In this document: piece by piece, positions 1,102 through 23,229 of the stretch | How the letters are laid out: each line of letters starts with the position of its first letter | Position numbering within the stretch: position 1 is the first letter of the stretch | NCBI GenBank assembly: GCA_001509375.1 | Contig: LGFT01000035.1 | Span: forward strand, 1 to 38,197 | Length of the DNA stretch: 38,197 nucleotides | From: Methanothrix harundinacea | Lineage (GTDB): Archaea; Halobacteriota; Methanosarcinia; Methanotrichales; Methanotrichaceae | Direction: 5' to 3' | Position numbers and translations under genes: made by a program | The notes under the pieces: generated by a model | Database searches by the model: none | The model's input: the letters and a program-made list of their open reading frames with translations, nothing else | What the model was told of the DNA's origin: nothing

Positions 1102-1323
1102 GTGGTTCCCAAGCTGATCTCCCCGGCTGAGTTCAATGCCCTCGTCGACTCCCTCGAGGGCCGGGACCGGCTCATCATCAAGCTCCTGGCGGGCACGGGG
1201 CTGCGGATCTCGGAGCTGACCCGCCTGAAGAAGTCGGACTTGGACCTCGATGACAAGCACAGGGAATCAAAAAGCATAGCGAGTTTGCCTCGGAGAGCAT
1301 GCCCCAGCAGCCCAGCAAGATAA
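1102..1323 (+). pseudogene. tyrosine recombinase/integrase fragment
   Basis: The GTG-initiated frame encodes SPAEFNALVDSLEGRDRLII, then LLAGTGLRISELTRLKKSDLD. The second block is the start of the catalytic domain of XerC/D or phage-type tyrosine recombinases and contains the first catalytic Arg (in TGLRISEL). The sequence leaves the family at about position 1255, and the H-x-x-R and Tyr motifs are absent, so the protein cannot be active. It is evidence that an integrating element once lay here. No att-like duplication is visible beside it. Confidence 0.7.
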
Positions 1324-1382
1324 ATTTGAAATGATAAACACAAAAATATTAAATGTGGGACGCAGTAAAAGCGTCCAATCAT

Positions 1383-3137
1383 TCATCTGAAGAGGTCCAT
1401 GAAATTGTAGAACGCCTCTGGATCTTCTCCACTTATTTTGACGCCTCCGCTGGCTACCGCTTCCTCAGAGTCTAGCTTTCCTAAAACCAGGTTCTTCCAG
1501 GTCAGCGAGTCTGTGACAACGGTGAACGTCGGATCTTCAACAACCTCCTGTTGAACCTCTATGATCCCCCTGCGAACGTATATGACATAGTCGCCAGATA
1601 CGGAATCATCCGAGAGATCAAAGCCGACGGCGTACTCCTCGTCAAGGGCCTTGGAAGCATTGAGGCTCACAGCCATAATCCTGAATAGGGTCTCCATCGG
1701 CATGTAGAAGACCATATTATCATCCATTGCTCTGAAGCCGAGGTCGAGAATCGGAATGCTTATCTGACCTGTCTCTTCGAGATACTCGGATAGCAAGTAG
1801 TTTCTTACCTGAGCGTTTGAGGTCTCTTCGGCGAGAGATAATAACGCCGAGTTCTTGACATCTCGAGCTTCAGCATTCTCAGAGTCGAGGAGGAGAACGT
1901 TGTCTGAGAAGATCAAGGCCCGTTTCATATCGCCCTCATCCAGAGCCGCCTTCGCCTTGATGGCAAGCTCTTCGGTGCCACCGGCTAGGTAAGCCATATC
2001 CTCCGCCTCTTCGGTAGGAGAGGTCGGGAATATATCTCTGCATTTACCGGTGAACCATCCCAAGTACTGCTGGTAGATCTGGAATATATCTCGATCCACC
2101 TCGCCGTAAATTTCCTGCAAGTTTGGATCTTCGGCGAGGTGGGGCGGCAGCTCGACGACCTCAATTATCTCACCAGCGGTCAGCCCCTTGTTCATGTAGC
2201 GAACCGTCTGGTCGTGAACATACTGGAGGGCGTCCCGGGCGTTGGTGAGGGCTCGACTGATGTTTTCAGCGCCGACGATCGGCCCTCCGCTGCTGTGGAT
2301 TAAAACCAGGTATTCAGCATCGAGCTTCCTCATGCTGTCTATGCTGTTTATGTAATCCAAAGGATCTCGATAAGAGGCGCCTCGAAGCGTATTGATGGCT
2401 GGGAATGCTTTGTAGAAATTGCCTATCTGAATTAGCACCTTATCGTCCGGCAGCCAGACGTAGATTATGTCGGAGGTCTCGCCGGGAGCGTGAACCAGGG
2501 TGAGATTAACCCCGGCGATGTTCGTCTCCAGTTCGTCTCCAATGGTCAGGGTGGGCGGCAGGTATCCTGATGGGCCGAGGATCGAGAAGGGCGCGATGCC
2601 GATAGTTGTCCAGTACGCCGGATTCTTTTGGTATGGCAACCCACTCATCATCGCCGCACGGTAATATTTGATGGGTGCGATCTGGCCATCCAGGGACGCC
2701 GGACTGAAGAGATTATAATTTAGAGTCTCGTGAGCAATGATCTCCGGTGAGTCATCGCCCGCGAAGACGCTAGCTCCGTGGACGTGGCATGCATGGTAGT
2801 GGGTGTAGATGATGGCTTTTACGGGCTTTTTGGAGAATATATCATCCAAATTCTCATTGAAAGCCGCTTTAGCTGCTTCGGCACCCGGTATGCTCTCACC
2901 AGGATCGACGACAATAAGACCATCGGTTCCTTCTATCAACACGGGATTATCTTGATTGTAGCCCACAGCAACATAAACCCCATTCGTCACATTATATACG
3001 GTTGGAGGCACCCAACTCTCTGTGAGGGCGACGAGATCGGGGTTGGCTGGAACCGCCTCAGGCTCAAAGGCTGCTGCAGACGACAACCAGAAAAATAACA
3101 ATAAGATTATCGCCTTGGAACATTTCTCCCTTTCCAT
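1383..3137 (-). CDS. secreted MBL-fold protein, alkyl-sulfatase (SdsA1/YjcS)-like
   Basis: The ATG at 3137 is chosen because GAGGTGAG lies just upstream; the GTG at 3146 would overlap that site. The 584-residue product starts with a hydrophobic segment (AIILLLFFWLSSAAA), a probable signal peptide. A metallo-beta-lactamase domain follows with VVDPGES, THYHACHVHG (residues 112-121) and GETSDIIYVW, then the family-typical NTLRGASYRDPLDYI. The C-terminal half resembles the helical dimerisation and SCP2-like domains of SdsA1-type alkyl sulfatases. In active relatives the zinc motif is THxHxDH; here Asp is Cys117, and the second His of the later HH motif is absent (LIHSSGG), so substrate or activity may differ. 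It probably forms an operon with the HTH gene 33 bases upstream. Confidence 0.8.
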   Translation of the reverse strand: MEREKCSKAIILLLFFWLSSAAAFEPEAVPANPDLVALTESWVPPTVYNVTNGVYVAVGYNQDNPVLIEGTDGLIVVDPGESIPGAEAAKAAFNENLDDIFSKKPVKAIIYTHYHACHVHGASVFAGDDSPEIIAHETLNYNLFSPASLDGQIAPIKYYRAAMMSGLPYQKNPAYWTTIGIAPFSILGPSGYLPPTLTIGDELETNIAGVNLTLVHAPGETSDIIYVWLPDDKVLIQIGNFYKAFPAINTLRGASYRDPLDYINSIDSMRKLDAEYLVLIHSSGGPIVGAENISRALTNARDALQYVHDQTVRYMNKGLTAGEIIEVVELPPHLAEDPNLQEIYGEVDRDIFQIYQQYLGWFTGKCRDIFPTSPTEEAEDMAYLAGGTEELAIKAKAALDEGDMKRALIFSDNVLLLDSENAEARDVKNSALLSLAEETSNAQVRNYLLSEYLEETGQISIPILDLGFRAMDDNMVFYMPMETLFRIMAVSLNASKALDEEYAVGFDLSDDSVSGDYVIYVRRGIIEVQQEVVEDPTFTVVTDSLTWKNLVLGKLDSEEAVASGGVKISGEDPEAFYNFMDLFR

Positions 3138-3170
3138 GTTTCTCACCTCATTTTCGTCATAGCTTGCTTA

Positions 3171-3461
3171 TCAAATTGCTCTCCTTTTGCACGAATATAC
3201 TTTGTGAGGTCGACCTTTACCTTGGTCGCTCTTCACATCACGCTCATGGACCCAGTTCTCACGACGCAGCGTACGCATCGCGATGCTAACTTCAGGCGGT
3301 CTCATATCAGTCCCGCGTTCGATATCTCTGGATGTCGCCTCGCCAGCAACCGCCAGATATGTAATGACCTTAGCCACGTTCCGTTGGACACCCAAGCTGT
3401 GTAAAAGATCCACAAACTCGTGGTCATCGTCGTCCTGGACTTTTGCTACTCCCTCTCTCAT
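3171..3461 (-). CDS. winged-helix transcriptional regulator (MarR/TrmB-like)
   Basis: The 96-residue protein has the pattern of archaeal one-domain winged-helix regulators: LGVQRNVAKVITYLAVAGEA (helices 1-2), SRDIERGTDMRPPEVSIAMR (helix-turn-helix with recognition helix around residues 53-63) and a basic wing with GKGRPHKVY. It has no ligand domain or metal site. A GAGGGGGT-rich stretch precedes the ATG, and an AT-rich TATA-like box lies at 3491-3500. It is the first gene before the alkyl-sulfatase-like protein on the same strand, so it may regulate that operon and itself. That role is inferred from position. Confidence 0.8.
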   Translation of the reverse strand: MREGVAKVQDDDDHEFVDLLHSLGVQRNVAKVITYLAVAGEATSRDIERGTDMRPPEVSIAMRTLRRENWVHERDVKSDQGKGRPHKVYSCKRRAI

Positions 3462-3502: not shown

Positions 3503-3747
3503 CCATTATACATAATTATTGTATTCGTAACCCAAAATAGATTGTGTCAGCAAAATACTTTCGCCGTGCATGGATCGTATATTAATAATAGCCATTCCAT
3601 TGATATATTAGAGGATTCGAAGATTGCACGGCGCCCTACACGTTTCTGGGCAGAAGTACGATCTTCTCTAGTTTCCTATTTTTAGGCATGATTTGATAAT
3701 TTTGGTCGCTTCAATCAGAATTTATTGACCCCGATTCAGGGAAAGAA

Positions 3748-3757
3748 TATTTATATA
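3748..3757 (+). promoter_or_regulatory. TATA box of the ATC-hydrolase-like gene
   Basis: The sequence TATTTATATA sits 20-40 bases upstream of both candidate ATGs (3776 and 3788). A transcription start about 25 bases downstream would give a leaderless or very short-leader mRNA. Other AT-rich sequence between 3505 and 3740 shows no supportable gene. Confidence 0.5.
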
Positions 3758-3775
3758 GTCTGTGATGTTCAAAGT

Positions 3776-4288
3776 ATGGGGTTTGCTATGGTCGGTATTA
3801 AAGACGTTCCTGCAAAAACGCGGTGGGAGATTGCAACTAGATCAGCAAATTTCGCTACCGTGGCAAGAGATGCTATGTTGAGGAAAGCCTTCGACAACGA
3901 CGAAATCATCGACGAGATTGAACGGTGTATTTGGGCTGAAGGAGGGAGGGCTGTAAGAGATATAGCCATCGCTTTGGGATTGCCCTCCGGTAACGCTATC
4001 GAGATCAACGAGGCCCTCGGTGTAGTTTCTGCGATCATTTTAGGGCCAGGATTTGATGCGGAGGTTATAGAAGCTTCTGAATCCCGAGTTAATGGAAGGA
4101 TAACGAGCTGTCCCATGCTCAACACACACAGAGAACTGGGACTACCAACAGCAGGAACGCACCTGCATTGTCAGGCGTTCTGTGAGAACGGCATCCAAGG
4201 CATGAACCCACGATACGCCATGGGATATACAAAGAGGATGTGCAGAGGGGATGACTGCTGCGAATACGCGGTTGAGCTTAAGAGATGA
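3776..4288 (+). CDS. L-2-amino-thiazoline-4-carboxylic acid hydrolase-like protein
   Basis: The 170-residue product has a helical N-terminal half (VARDAMLRKAF, IIDEIERCIW, AVRDIAIALGLP). Its C-terminal half carries conserved-looking cysteines: ITSCPMLNTHRELGL, HLHCQAFCENGI, and a terminal CRGDDCCEYAVEL. This CxxxxCC-E-x-x-V-E-L ending is typical of the ATC-hydrolase-like/V4R-related proteins widespread in anaerobes, where the true substrate is usually unknown. The ATG at 3776 is used; ATG 3788 fits the TATA spacing equally well and would remove four residues. There is no signal peptide. Confidence is moderate for the family and low for the reaction. Confidence 0.65.
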   Translation: MGFAMVGIKDVPAKTRWEIATRSANFATVARDAMLRKAFDNDEIIDEIERCIWAEGGRAVRDIAIALGLPSGNAIEINEALGVVSAIILGPGFDAEVIEASESRVNGRITSCPMLNTHRELGLPTAGTHLHCQAFCENGIQGMNPRYAMGYTKRMCRGDDCCEYAVELKR

Positions 4289-4345: not shown

Positions 4346-5240
4346 ATGACCATTCTGGTGGGCTGCAGCGGCTGGTCGTATGACGACTGGGTAGGAGCGG
4401 CTCTATCCCATAGGACTGGCCAAAAAGAAGGCAGAATGGTTGGCCTATTACGCCCAGTTCTTCGATACGGTAGAGATCAACAGCACCTATTACCATCCAC
4501 CAGGGGAGCGACAAGTCCATTCATGGATTAAGAAGATGAAAAATAAGGATGGCGGATTCGAGTACTCGGTGAAGATGCCGGGCCTAGTTACCCATCAGGC
4601 TCTTGTAGAAGGCGACGAGGAGAAGGCACTCTTCTGGGCATCCACCTTTGATAAGACCTGCCTATCCCCTCTCGCCGATGCAGATCTTATGGGCGGCGTT
4701 CTGTTTCAGTTATCACCTTATTTCAAGAACGAAGGACAAGCTCTGAGTCGTATGGCCATGGTTCTGGACTCTCTGGCCCAAAAGGAGTACGACCTCGCGG
4801 TGGAGTTCAGGCAAAGAAGCTGGCTGGACGAGAGCGGCAACTACCTAGATCCTCGACGTTAGAGGTTCTGAAAGAGAGGAACGCAGCCAACGTTATGATC
4901 GACTGTCCAGGACATTATCCCGGCAAGACGCTGACTGCGGATCACGCTTATTTACGCTTCCACGGCAGAAACTACGATATCTGGTACAGAAGAGAAAAAG
5001 AGGCCGATCACAGACTCGATCGGTATGACTATCTCTATGATAAGGATCAACTCGAAAGATGGATTCCCAGGATCAAGGAAGCGGATTTGAGGACTACCAA
5101 GGTCAGGATGTTTCAACAACCACGCCAGAGCCAAGGCGGTAAGGAACGCATTTCAGATGATGGACATGCTCCTGATCGAGCACAAATCCAAGGAAGTGCA
5201 TTTACAGGATCAATTCACTCTTGGGGGATTTGGAAAATAG
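4346..5240 (+). pseudogene. DUF72 family gene, broken by at least three frameshifts
   Basis: The frame opens with TILVGCSGWSYDDWVG, the hallmark N-terminus of DUF72 (YecE-like TIM-barrel) proteins. The frame then shifts near 4395-4408 to YPIGLAKKKAEWLAYYAQFFDTVEINSTYY. It shifts again near 4850-4863, where one frame stops at DPRR and another resumes with LEVLKERNAANVMIDCPG. A third shift near 5113 moves to the DUF72-typical NNHARAKAVRNAF. All pieces are collinear and recognisably one protein of about 290 residues ending at TAG 5238-5240. Several independent lesions make true decay more likely than sequencing error. DUF72 function is unclear. Confidence 0.85.
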
Positions 5241-5889
5241 CGGAATCGAGTCAAAGGCGGCCAGCACCGACCACAGCGCCCTGCCTTAAGGGACCATCAC
5301 AGGTTGATGGCCTGTCCGCCCCGAGTCTCGATTCAAAGCCGAGCAGAGAAGCATATCGCTGTCACTTTGCACCGTCCTTATACACAGCTTCCCATTCACG
5401 AGAACCCGAGAGCGTCATCCGATTGTCGGGCCTGTTGCTTGATCTGGCTCAAGCTTTGTGCCGCATCTCGCACTTGGCGAGAACTCTCGGATTTGGCTGA
5501 GTTGAGCATATACTACGCCCGTTACGGCGTGCATATATCCGACCTCATCGGTTCTCAGCCTCCCCAATGCTTTCCGGATGCTGCCTCGATAGACAGCACC
5601 TCTTAGGTCTAGCCTGAAGAGCCTGCCGGTATGCTTGTCCTCGTTCTTACAGCACGAAACGCGGCAAACCTTACATATGATCGTTAGAGATACTTGTAGT
5701 TTGCGGTTGATGAAAGAGGTAATGGAATGATGTTGGGTGGCACTGCACAAGAAAATGCTTAAGGCGCTGGTCCTAATCGGTCTAAGCCGGGTTATCGCAC
5801 TCATTAGAAGGAGATATAAGCGACGGCGTTAGATCCACTCCATACTGGGCGGATGAAATTCTTTTACATAGAGAATGTGGACGACAAAG
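5241..5889. other. intergenic stretch without a supportable gene
   Basis: Open frames on both strands here lack family signatures, membrane segments or matching start signals. A 17-codon frame at 5852-5905 (MKFFYIENVDD...) is too short to judge. The stretch follows a decayed gene and probably consists of more eroded sequence. Confidence 0.4.
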
Positions 5890-14899: not shown

Positions 14900-17146
14900 T
14901 TAGATATCGATATTTCGAGCGATTTTAAGATTGGGAGTTGTCTTAGTTGGAATGGACCAGGCGCCTCTGCGATTTCCTCTTAAATCGTTATCTACTATGC
15001 TACCAATACCACCATCAAACACTCTTATTGCTTCGGAATAATTCGCGTTAATTTTATTCTGACTTACCACTGGATTTCCTGTTGACTGTATCTCGATACC
15101 TGCAAATTTATTCCATATAATATTATTATCCCTTAAAACTCCTTTGCCGTTATCCCAAATCAAAACCCCATTTTGCTCACCATTTCGAATATTATTTCTA
15201 AATATATTGGGGTTTCCATGGGTTGCTATCTCAATCCCTGAATAAAAATTTCCGAAAATATCGTTGTTTTCAATGATTCCCAAACCACTCTCGTGAACAA
15301 AAACGCCATTTTCTCTATTCTTATATATTTTGTTATATTTCAAGTTTGGATTTCCCGATGTACGAATTTGAACGCCCGAAAGACTATTATTAAAGATTTC
15401 ATTCGCTTCAAGAATGCCGCGGCCACTATCTTGTATTCTAACTCCGAATTGCTTATTATCATGTATCATGTTGCGTTGTAATATTGGATTGCTGTTTTTC
15501 TCTACTTCTATCCCGTGAACATTACCGAAAATATCGTTATCTTCAATAACACCTAATCCATTATCCCATATGTAAATACCATCTGATTTTCCTCTGTAAA
15601 TTCGATTATGGCGTAATTTTGGATTTCCTTGAGATTTTATTGCTACAGCGTCACTTTCATTTCCGAATATATCGTTGTTTTCCAGTACCCCAAAGCCACC
15701 ATCCAATACAAATATGCCGCCCTGTTTTCCGTCACGAATGCTATTATGGCGGAGTATCGGATTTCCATTTGACCTGATACCTACACCGTCATGTCCATTA
15801 TCAGAAATATCGTTATGTTCTAGGATACCAAGGCCATAGTTGGTTACTATTATACCACTTTCTTTATTATTATAAATTTTATTATATCTTATATTCGGGT
15901 TTCCCCCATCTCGTATCTCGATACCAGCAATATTTTTGAAAATCTCATTATTCTCAAATATCCCTAGTCCGTCTTTATGTACGAGGATACCGCCTTGTTT
16001 TCCATCGCGAATCCGATTGAGACGTAAGATAGGATTAGCAAAATTCTTAATCTCTATGCCAGAAAATGAATTATCAAAAATATCATTATCTTCTAAAATT
16101 CCTCGAGCATTGTCAAATATAAATACACCACATTGAGCACTACCATGAATACTATTATGCTTAAGTAGCGGATTTGCACCATGATGTATGCCAACACATG
16201 GTGACTCTTGACTAGTTATTTCGCAGTTTTCAATTACAATAGACCCAAACGGGATGTCGACACAGAACCAATTCCCACTGACTTGTTTCAAGGAAATATT
16301 TTTAACACAACCGTGGGACGCTACCGATGCAAGAACGCTTCTCTCTGCAGCTCGTACTACTATATTATTCGAATCGCCTTCGCCCACAATTTCTAAATTC
16401 TTATTAATAATAATTGATTCATCATAAATGCCAGGGCGAATAACAATTTTATCGCCCATGTTTGATGCTTTAATTGCATCATTAATATTTTTAAAGCATT
16501 TATTTTGGTTTTTATCGACTATTAAAGTTTGAGTGTACTTTTTTTCAATTAATTTTTCATCTTTGGCAAAACGTTCATCCAATTGGCCACTTATATCACT
16601 GGAACTGTCTAAGATCGTCTCATCTGATTTTTGTAATCTATCTATGGCATTGGTAATGTCCAACGCCAATTCCTCCAACCTCTCATTGAATTTGACTAAT
16701 TTTAGACTCTTGCCTCTTAGGTCCCTCCAATCTTTGTATTGATGATCTTTAATCAAATTGACTAACTCATCATCTGGCGTAGTATTGGTCTCCATTTGCT
16801 CGCATCTTATGTAATATATTGGAAGGATTAAATCATTACGGTTTACGTTTTTCCCATATTCTGCAAATTGCCGCAATTCATCAAGACATGCTTCACTAGC
16901 AAAATAATTGGGGGTAATTATAGGAATTAGAAAAGTAACACCTCGAAGCGATTCGGTAATCCTTTCTATCCAATTTTGGCCCCATTCTATGCTATTTCGA
17001 TCTTGGAAAATTGGAAATTCCTTTGCATGATGACTTCGTACTTCACCGCTAAGGCGGTCTCGAAGCTTTGTCAGATATCCATGATCATGATTATCATCGT
17101 GATGGGAATAGCTAAAGAAAGCTGCTGGTTGCATGATCGTGGACAT
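14900..17146 (-). CDS. TIR domain fused to a right-handed beta-helix
   Basis: ATG 17146 is chosen because GGTGAT lies six bases upstream; an in-frame ATG at 17182 is less likely. The 748-residue protein starts with a TIR domain (about 6-165): AAFFSYSHHDD, QDRNSIEWGQNWI, LIPIITPNYFASEACLDELR, with the putative NADase Glu90. A hydrophilic linker (170-205) leads to a beta-helix (about 206-740) opened by FKNINDAIKASNMGDKIVIR and built of nine repeats of about 46 residues of the pattern GNPxLRHNxIxxxKxxGI then LExNDIFGN. No signal peptide or membrane span is seen. The gene is far more AT-rich than its surroundings and has a TATA box at 17202-17214, suggesting horizontal origin. TIR proteins commonly cleave NAD+ in prokaryotic immunity; the beta-helix may sense a target. 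Role inferred. Confidence 0.88.
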   Translation of the reverse strand: MSTIMQPAAFFSYSHHDDNHDHGYLTKLRDRLSGEVRSHHAKEFPIFQDRNSIEWGQNWIERITESLRGVTFLIPIITPNYFASEACLDELRQFAEYGKNVNRNDLILPIYYIRCEQMETNTTPDDELVNLIKDHQYKDWRDLRGKSLKLVKFNERLEELALDITNAIDRLQKSDETILDSSSDISGQLDERFAKDEKLIEKKYTQTLIVDKNQNKCFKNINDAIKASNMGDKIVIRPGIYDESIIINKNLEIVGEGDSNNIVVRAAERSVLASVASHGCVKNISLKQVSGNWFCVDIPFGSIVIENCEITSQESPCVGIHHGANPLLKHNSIHGSAQCGVFIFDNARGILEDNDIFDNSFSGIEIKNFANPILRLNRIRDGKQGGILVHKDGLGIFENNEIFKNIAGIEIRDGGNPNIRYNKIYNNKESGIIVTNYGLGILEHNDISDNGHDGVGIRSNGNPILRHNSIRDGKQGGIFVLDGGFGVLENNDIFGNESDAVAIKSQGNPKLRHNRIYRGKSDGIYIWDNGLGVIEDNDIFGNVHGIEVEKNSNPILQRNMIHDNKQFGVRIQDSGRGILEANEIFNNSLSGVQIRTSGNPNLKYNKIYKNRENGVFVHESGLGIIENNDIFGNFYSGIEIATHGNPNIFRNNIRNGEQNGVLIWDNGKGVLRDNNIIWNKFAGIEIQSTGNPVVSQNKINANYSEAIRVFDGGIGSIVDNDLRGNRRGAWSIPTKTTPNLKIARNIDI

Positions 17147-17201
17147 AGCCCAATCACCTTGGACGACTTCTCCATTAAACATTTAAATAGCTTTTTACAA
17201 A

Positions 17202-22586: not shown

Positions 22587-22691
22587 GAACCCACTCACCT
22601 CCGGACGTGACCGAAACCCGAGCTATCGGGCCACCCGTCATGTCTATATCTTACACCTTTTTAAACCCATTTGATTGACGGCGGGTTTGAG

Positions 22692-23229
22692 GTGAAGTTT
22701 TTGGCTGAGGGACGCTGGGATCCGAGTCCTAGTCGACCCCGGCGCCGACAAAAAGGGGCTTCTTTCAGGCCTCTCCCGAAGGGGCCTTTCTCACAAGGAC
22801 GTGGACCTCATATTCGTAACCCACACCCACCTCGACCACATCCTCAACTTGAGGCTCTTTCCTGAGACGGAGGTCTGCGATTCGAGCTACATCTATCGGG
22901 GGGAAGAGGTGATACCATACGAAAAATTTGTCCCGGGAACGAATGTCGAGGTCCTCCCGACGCCCGGCCACACCCCGGATCACGCCTCCCTCCTCGTCCA
23001 GGCCGATGGCGAGATCTGGCTTGTGGCGGGAGACCTCTTCTGGTGGGGGGAGGGTGCTGTCCATGGGGCTGATCGAGAGTCCTTGTTGGCCCTGGAGGAC
23101 GAATACGCCTTCGATACAGAGGCCCTGAGGAGGAGCAGGATGACGGCATTGGAGAGGGCCGACGTCGTGATCCCAGGCCACGGGAAGATCCTCCGCCCCC
23201 ATGGGAGGCATCCGCCTGGAATCCGATAG
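22692..23229 (+). pseudogene. MBL-fold metallohydrolase with disrupted N-terminus
   Basis: From about 22711 one frame reads RDAGIRVLVDPGADKKGLLS, then VDLIFVTHTHLDHILNLRLF, TPGHTPDHASLLV, LVAGDLFWW and VIPGHGKIL. This is the full set of metallo-beta-lactamase metal ligands (THTHLDH, H, D, H). The GTG at 22692 starts VKFLAEG in a different frame, and in relatives about 20 residues separate that start from RDAG. A short deletion plus frameshift therefore seems to have removed part of the first strands. GTG 22801 could start only a truncated protein. Assembly error is possible. Confidence 0.65.

Follow-up and report, generated by a model that had tools for sequence, protein, structure and literature searches.

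An alkylsulfatase-like protein of Methanothrix harundinacea belongs to a clade with cysteine at the position of the metal-ligand aspartate

The aspartate of the HxHxDH motif is called characteristic of the superfamily in a review and in the sulfatase database paper (PMC5066984). For the alkylsulfatase SdsAP, the zinc ligands given in PMC5426288 are Asp196, His197, His367, Glu322 and water at one site, and His192, His194, Glu303 and Glu322 at the other. In the sulfate loop of SdsA1 (Ala298-Arg317), the asparagine was found in 98% and both arginines in 99% of 370 aligned sequences of SulfAtlas family S3, according to PMC5066984. PMC5426288 also states that replacement of Tyr246 by Ala or Ser, or of Gly263 by Ala or Phe, abolished the SDS activity of SdsAP, and that Pisa1 carries Ser at the Tyr246 position, Phe at the Gly263 position and Asp at the Glu303 position.

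The protein described here is encoded in a 38,197-nucleotide stretch of Methanothrix harundinacea DNA (contig LGFT01000035.1), the whole of which is called the window below; features are listed in Table 1. The window protein passed all three Pfam cut-offs of the architecture of S3/SdsA1 alkylsulfatases (Lactamase_B, Alkyl_sulf_dimr and Alkyl_sulf_C), in agreement with the initial annotation, which had stated that the family architecture is kept. Its AlphaFold2 model, built from 54 aligned sequences, had a mean pLDDT of 93.1 and a pTM of 0.90. The closest solved relatives by sequence were SdsAP, YjcS-type proteins, SdsA1 and Pisa1, and structure comparison with the SdsA1, Pisa1, SdsAP and YjcS entries gave Z values of 34.3-42.7. 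For Pisa1, SdsA1 and SdsAP, 540-546 residues were matched (Z 41.8-42.7); the values for SdsA1 were Foldseek E 3.9e-41 and VIA Z 42.0, with an rmsd of 2.9 across 540 residues. The window protein has the fold and architecture of a type III alkylsulfatase.

An N-terminal signal peptide had also been proposed from the sequence, and the hydrophobic stretch found there is consistent with one as predicted from hydropathy (15-residue maximum 2.37, starting at residue 10); pLDDT was low at residues 1-20. The protein is apparently exported. Its occurrence in a methanogen had been considered unexpected, a view at odds with the ordinary SdsA1-like copies found in the same archaeal family, which by eye also have hydrophobic N-terminal leaders.

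Table 1. Coordinates of the enzyme gene, its domains and key codons, and the adjoining upstream features in the window.
Feature	Position	Strand	Basis
Cys-clade alkylsulfatase-like protein, 584 aa, ATG at 3137	1383..3137	-	ORF, Pfam, AlphaFold2 model
Probable signal peptide, residues 1-23, MEREKCSKAIILLLFFWLSSAAA	3069..3137	-	Hydropathy and low pLDDT; cleavage site inferred
Lactamase_B (metallo-beta-lactamase) domain, residues 62-279	2301..2954	-	PF00753, 51.7 bits (cut-off 22.7)
Alkyl_sulf_dimr dimerisation domain, residues 320-454	1776..2180	-	PF14863, 120.9 bits, above Pfam cut-off
Alkyl_sulf_C / SCP2-like domain, residues 471-583	1389..1727	-	PF14864, 46.2 bits; SCP2, 26 bits; above cut-offs
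THYHACH motif, residues 112-118 (H113, H115, C117, H118; A116 is D in other clade rows)	2784..2804	-	
Gln62 codon (Arg in other clade rows covering the position)	2952..2954	-	
Ser165, SdsAP Tyr246 position	2643..2645	-	Numbering from alignment and published residue numbers
Ala182, SdsAP Gly263 position	2592..2594	-	Numbering from alignment; less certain, gaps nearby
Glu220, metal-ligand position kept (SdsAP Glu303)	2478..2480	-	27/27 clade rows
Gly239, replacing bridging Glu/Asp (SdsA1 E299, SdsAP E322)	2421..2423	-	
Ala247, replacing sulfate-loop Asn (SdsA1 N307)	2397..2399	-	
His281, metal-ligand position kept (SdsAP His367)	2295..2297	-	26/27 clade rows, 1 row X
MreA-type HTH gene, 96 aa, lacking the C-terminal end of its paralogues	3171..3461	-	NCBIfam NF053756
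Leader common to nearest orthologue; upstream end encodes last HTH residues	3138..3199	-	Local alignment, G004

Homologues were collected in two ways. A search of 60 related genomes, including the window's own, gave matches in 17; close matches (51-81% identity) that covered the motif read THxHDCH, and the distant full-length matches (26-29% identity) were ordinary copies of the SHPHxDH type. Named contigs were scanned with conserved stretches ending before the Cys, and because the best 80 of 492 relatives were kept, the Asp-bearing sister group is represented by a sample. The resulting alignment held 90 proteins: 77 of the 80 scanned loci (L054, L070 and L091 were excluded by a length limit of 480 residues), the window protein, two further loci, and 10 SdsA1-like copies, all drawn from the window's own archaeal family. 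Rows were assigned to groups by profile score, independently of the motif.

The initial annotation had pointed to Cys in place of the zinc-ligand Asp and had proposed an alignment of archaeal homologues as a check. C117 was present in every Cys-clade row (27/27), and Asp in the 62 other rows with the motif (52 sister and 10 SdsA1-like). One of the 53 rows scored as sister, L055, had X at this position; it is a Cys-clade gene whose first part reads THHHDCH, and it was moved into the clade for the tree and later counts, which rest on 28 rows for the clade, 52 for the sister group and 10 for the SdsA1-like copies. We rejected a broken gene as the explanation for L055 (G211), because the 233 N inside it are an assembly gap. 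With motif and loop columns masked, the 28 Cys rows formed one clade with SH-aLRT 100, obtained by a quick tree method without bootstrap, on a stem 1.4 changes per column long. Cys was found in the orthologues of five further genomes of the same genus (G001, G003, G004, G008 and, truncated, G006), and not the pattern of an isolated Cys beside same-genus homologues with Asp that would have spoken against the initial reading; the Asp forms in the window's archaeal family are distant paralogues with 24-27% identity to the window protein, one of which sits in G006. An isolated variant or a sequencing error at C117 is ruled out by the uniformity of the clade. As far as sequence can tell, the Cys belongs to a clade-level remodelling of a known enzyme type and is not an isolated oddity.

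C117 is the sole conserved Cys of the clade and the only Cys of the entire ORF in 7 of the 28 rows, which favours a metal ligand over a disulfide. Among five Methanothrix-type copies dN/dS was 0.09-0.20 (0.16-0.18 in pairs with the window), and in the close pair L053-L060 it was near 0.47 at low divergence (dS 0.06). The clade gene is under purifying selection in most pairs.

Changes at positions 117, 239 and 247 were concerted, with no mixed row among those with letters at these positions. The motif of the window reads HYHACH instead of the HxHxDH of S3, and H113, H115, H118 and E220 were each invariant in 27/27 clade rows; H281 was found in 26/27, the other row having X. Both the Glu303-type and the His367-type ligand positions of SdsAP are thus occupied in the clade, and the statement of the initial annotation that a second downstream His is missing was incorrect. 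An apparent misplacement of Glu220 and His281 came from a gap in the automatic alignment and was rejected, since careful and profile-to-PDB alignments paired Glu with Glu and His with His. What is truly absent in the window protein is the bridging Glu/Asp, replaced by Gly239. At this position the clade had Gly in 16 and Ala in 12 of its 28 rows, so that no clade row has the bridging Glu of SdsAP (E322); the sister rows had Asp (52/52) and the SdsA1-like rows Glu (10/10). The sulfate-loop Asn was Ala247 in 28/28 clade rows and Asn in the 62 others, and both loop arginines (Arg252 and Arg257) were kept in all 28. The published S3 loop pattern fitted 7/28 clade rows, the window protein not among them, and 62/62 other rows. 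Because this pattern tolerates Ala at both lost positions, some clade-like sequences may already be in S3.

The substrate pocket differed as well. The Tyr246 and Gly263 that SdsAP requires are Ser and Ala in the window protein. Position 165 of the clade was never Tyr (A 8, S 6, M 5, V 4, G 2, T 2, and L in L116), and position 182 was F in 13, A in 11, C in 2, S in 1 and G in 1. Since all 52 sister rows have Phe at the Tyr246 position, the Cys clade is not alone in lacking Tyr there. Pisa1, with Ser and Phe at these two positions, shows that the pocket residues alone would fit a secondary alkylsulfatase too; in the clade, small residues predominate at the first position, and Phe occupies the second in 13/28 rows. 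The idea of an altered metal site or altered substrate, raised in the initial annotation, is supported and extends clade-wide to the bridging acid, the sulfate loop and the substrate pocket.

Compared with SdsA1, SdsAP and YjcS, the clade thus shares the three domains, the fold (Z 34.3-42.0), the motif His residues, the Glu303- and His367-type ligands and the loop arginines, but differs at the motif Asp (Cys), the bridging Glu (Gly/Ala), the sulfate-loop Asn (Ala) and the Tyr246 and Gly263 positions, at 22-26% identity. Pisa1 is alike in fold (Z 42.7) and unlike in the Cys motif, in the bridging and sulfate-loop losses, and at the Glu303 position, where the clade has Glu in place of the Asp that PMC5426288 gives for Pisa1. 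The nearest sampled group is the sister group (THxHxDH and [GA]DN; Desulfobacteraceae, Alcanivorax, Sneathiella and others), with 36-44% identity to the window protein in 24 rows. It has the APGET ligand and the downstream His in common with the clade, but keeps Asp117, Asp239, Asn247 and the S3 loop pattern in 52/52 rows. We know of no characterised member of this group.

Archaeal members of the clade came from Methanothrix, Methanosarcina, ANME-1/Methanophagales and Methanolliviera. Members labelled as bacterial came from Desulforhopalus, Dehalococcoidia, Anaerolineae, Ornatilinea, Bacillota, Christensenellaceae, Bacteroidetes, Verrucomicrobia, a gammaproteobacterial MAG and Bipolaricaulota; many of the source genomes are MAGs and may contain binning errors. 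In the tree, archaeal members were interleaved with bacterial ones, which suggests horizontal transfer. Of 237 genomes in the window's class, 22 gave matches, and 14 of these were counted as Cys clade by score or fragment; the 14 include G006, G036 and G211 as well as G032 and G207, and in the last two the motif itself is not visible. A phylum-wide draw gave matches in 27/392 genomes; its three further Cys-type genes are probably L035, L036 and L039, which have the same scores. One gene of intermediate score, L149 (G262), nevertheless has Asp117, Glu239 and Asn247. In L016 the clade member (1321-3312, -) carries a C-terminal extension whose hydrophobic end may be a membrane anchor.

Truncated copies were found in three relatives: the G006 copy stops after about residue 154, G036 has one copy lacking the N-terminal part beside an intact one, and the G207 copy lacks the N-terminal part. 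The function therefore appears dispensable in some lineages. L018, L040 (= L015) and L054 (= L117) are truncated Cys-clade copies from Methanothrix and Methanosarcina relatives, and the Methanosarcina copy L054 carries an in-frame TAG, a codon that in Methanosarcina could in principle be read as pyrrolysine. The partial G032 gene was rejected as a broken gene, its match ending 2 bases from the contig end.

Among 94 columns invariant in the 26 other clade rows, the window differed at two, R62Q and D116A. Other rows differed from invariant columns at 0 to 5, and L040 at 19; the N-terminal part of L040 is unrelated sequence, and its Arg62 should not be counted. R62 and D116 are diagnostic of the clade, the sisters having mostly Leu at 62 and mostly Ala at 116. 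As the clade gained the two residues jointly and the window copy lost both, they may form a coupled pair, for example a salt bridge, a hypothesis drawn from a single loss event. The codon of A116 is GCA and that of all 10 orthologues listed is GAC; as two bases differ, a single-base error is no explanation. If the window protein works, it can do without D116 but perhaps not without C117, in keeping with C117 as a ligand. Unique changes in the MBL domain numbered 41 in the window vs 8 in L031 with L032 as outgroup, 40 vs 8 with L033 and 25 vs 15 with L036, and dN/dS was 0.166 for window-L031 vs 0.112 for L031-L032. The window copy appears to have changed fast in its catalytic domain, as a diverging clade member without the R62/D116 pair.

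The HTH gene upstream passed the NF053756 cut-off (115.3 vs 100 bits, model positions 1-81 of 110). The window genome has eight matches to this gene, itself included. Identity to G000:C30 of the same genome is 83% across 91 residues, but the gene is short of the full length of about 130, with 96 aa vs open frames of 130 (G000:C30) and 128 (G000:C68) in its two closest relatives there. Its downstream end and the spacer aligned with the region upstream of the G004 orthologue, and the MreA-type matches of G004, among those listed, were on other contigs. At none of the 30 other loci compared, some of them with short flanks, did an ORF group with the HTH gene. With its end read from an ancestral leader and no similar ORF at these loci, the truncated MreA-type gene would either have been placed recently before the enzyme gene or be joined to it wrongly by the assembly. 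The proposal that the linked HTH gene suggests inducible expression lost its footing with the truncation, the leader-derived end and the lack of a similar neighbour at the 30 loci, and on the same grounds an ancestral regulator of the enzyme gene was rejected. More widely, no neighbour gene recurred in 31 loci, several with short flanks (the widest family after the core was in 4/31), so the gene neighbourhoods give no hint on function.

Subclass B1 metallo-beta-lactamases likewise have Cys among the ligands of their second metal site and no bridging carboxylate, according to PMC5426288. The arrangement is different: B1 has Asp120, Cys221 and His196, where the clade has Cys, Gly/Ala and Glu, respectively. 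The window protein, with Cys at the 120 position and Gly at 221, lacks the B1 site Asp120/Cys221/His263, and scored 19.9 bits against the NCBIfam B1 cut-off of 200. The open-licence literature searched gave no description of the Cys clade (a scope that did not extend to the original reports on SdsA1, Pisa1 and YjcS), no D120C metallo-beta-lactamase and no Methanothrix alkyl sulfatase. HXHXCH gave a match there, in a paper on copper resistance.

The reading we favour, somewhat ahead of an even chance, is an exported metallohydrolase with a His-His-Glu and a Cys-His-His metal site, no bridging carboxylate, water as the nucleophile, and a substrate that combines a hydrophobic part with an anionic head group. 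Two metals would still be bound, one by H113, H115 and E220 and the other by C117, H118 and H281, with no carboxylate bridging them; the thiolate of the B1 "cysteine site" would have moved to position 120 from 221. A metal-bound water would hydrolyse an ester or similar bond. The hydrophobic, anionic-headed substrate is suggested by the retained arginines and SCP2-like domain. With the bridging acid, the sulfate Asn and the pocket residues lost, the SdsA1 reaction is unlikely, although a related one may take place; the clade probably does not act on primary alkyl sulfates as SdsA1 does. A broader proposal, which we put forward tentatively as falling somewhat short of even odds, is that methanogens, ANME-1 and several bacterial phyla share an undescribed exported metallohydrolase family, its site rebuilt around Cys at the Asp120 position without a bridging carboxylate, its reaction or metal preference unlike those of characterised alkylsulfatases, and the Arg62-Asp116 pair part of the site. 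A clade with uniform Cys and matching changes in bridging ligand and substrate loop is a natural experiment on rebuilding a di-metal hydrolase site.

Alternatively, alkylsulfatase activity could have been kept with a tuned metal site, perhaps on secondary alkyl sulfates as in Pisa1. The fold and domains are the same, Arg252, Arg257 and Glu220 are kept, and pocket positions 165/182 resemble the Ser/Phe of Pisa1; however, neither the motif Asp nor the bridging carboxylate is present, the loop pattern of S3 fails in three quarters of the clade, and the Asn that PMC5066984 gives as 98% conserved is Ala throughout. We regard this explanation as unlikely, and plain alkylsulfatase function is probably to be discounted for the clade on these residues. 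For sulfur metabolism, an alkylsulfatase annotation of clade genes in methanogens or ANME archaea is not a reliable guide. The same two losses at the metal site, together with the truncated copies in three relatives, would suit a non-catalytic metal- or lipid-binding protein that has retained the fold. Purifying selection speaks against such a binder, as do the presumed ligand positions, five of six being invariant and the sixth (H281) differing in no determined residue, and we consider it improbable. More remote still is the possibility that C117, rather than chiefly binding metal, acts as the catalytic thiol of a sulfur chemistry that handles thioesters or persulfides. This would agree with C117 being the only conserved Cys and with many clade members apparently coming from anaerobic settings, but C117 lies exactly at the ligand position and the neighbouring ligand residues are kept.

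A further doubt concerns the window copy alone, which might be losing its function, in early decay, so that THYHACH would misrepresent the clade. It is the only row without both R62 and D116, its upstream region is rearranged, and the excess of unique MBL-domain changes relative to L031 gave a chi-square of 22.2 with outgroup L032. Taking L036, which is more distant, as the outgroup left a weak excess (chi-square 2.5), and two changes at invariant columns are not unusual, the other full-length rows having 0 to 5. The frame is open without a stop, dN/dS to L031 is 0.17, and H113, H115, C117, H118, E220 and H281 are all present; decay of the window copy thus seems rather unlikely.

Several other features of the window were recorded. 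A 73-aa Phage_integrase (tyrosine recombinase) fragment (1102-1323, +; positions 5-55 of 172) adjoins the 3' end of the enzyme gene. An ATC_hydrolase (L-2-amino-thiazoline-4-carboxylic acid hydrolase) domain protein (43 bits) lies at 3725-4288 (+), followed by a DUF72 gene at 4440-5500 (+) in two frames (4440-4862 and 4895-5500) that is apparently frame-broken. A 760-aa protein at 14900-17182 (-), in a region of locally lower GC, has an N-terminal TIR domain and then right-handed beta-helix/NosD repeats, and is possibly a defence or signalling protein. A second Lactamase_B match, with a TGA inside, was found at 22687-22896 (+).
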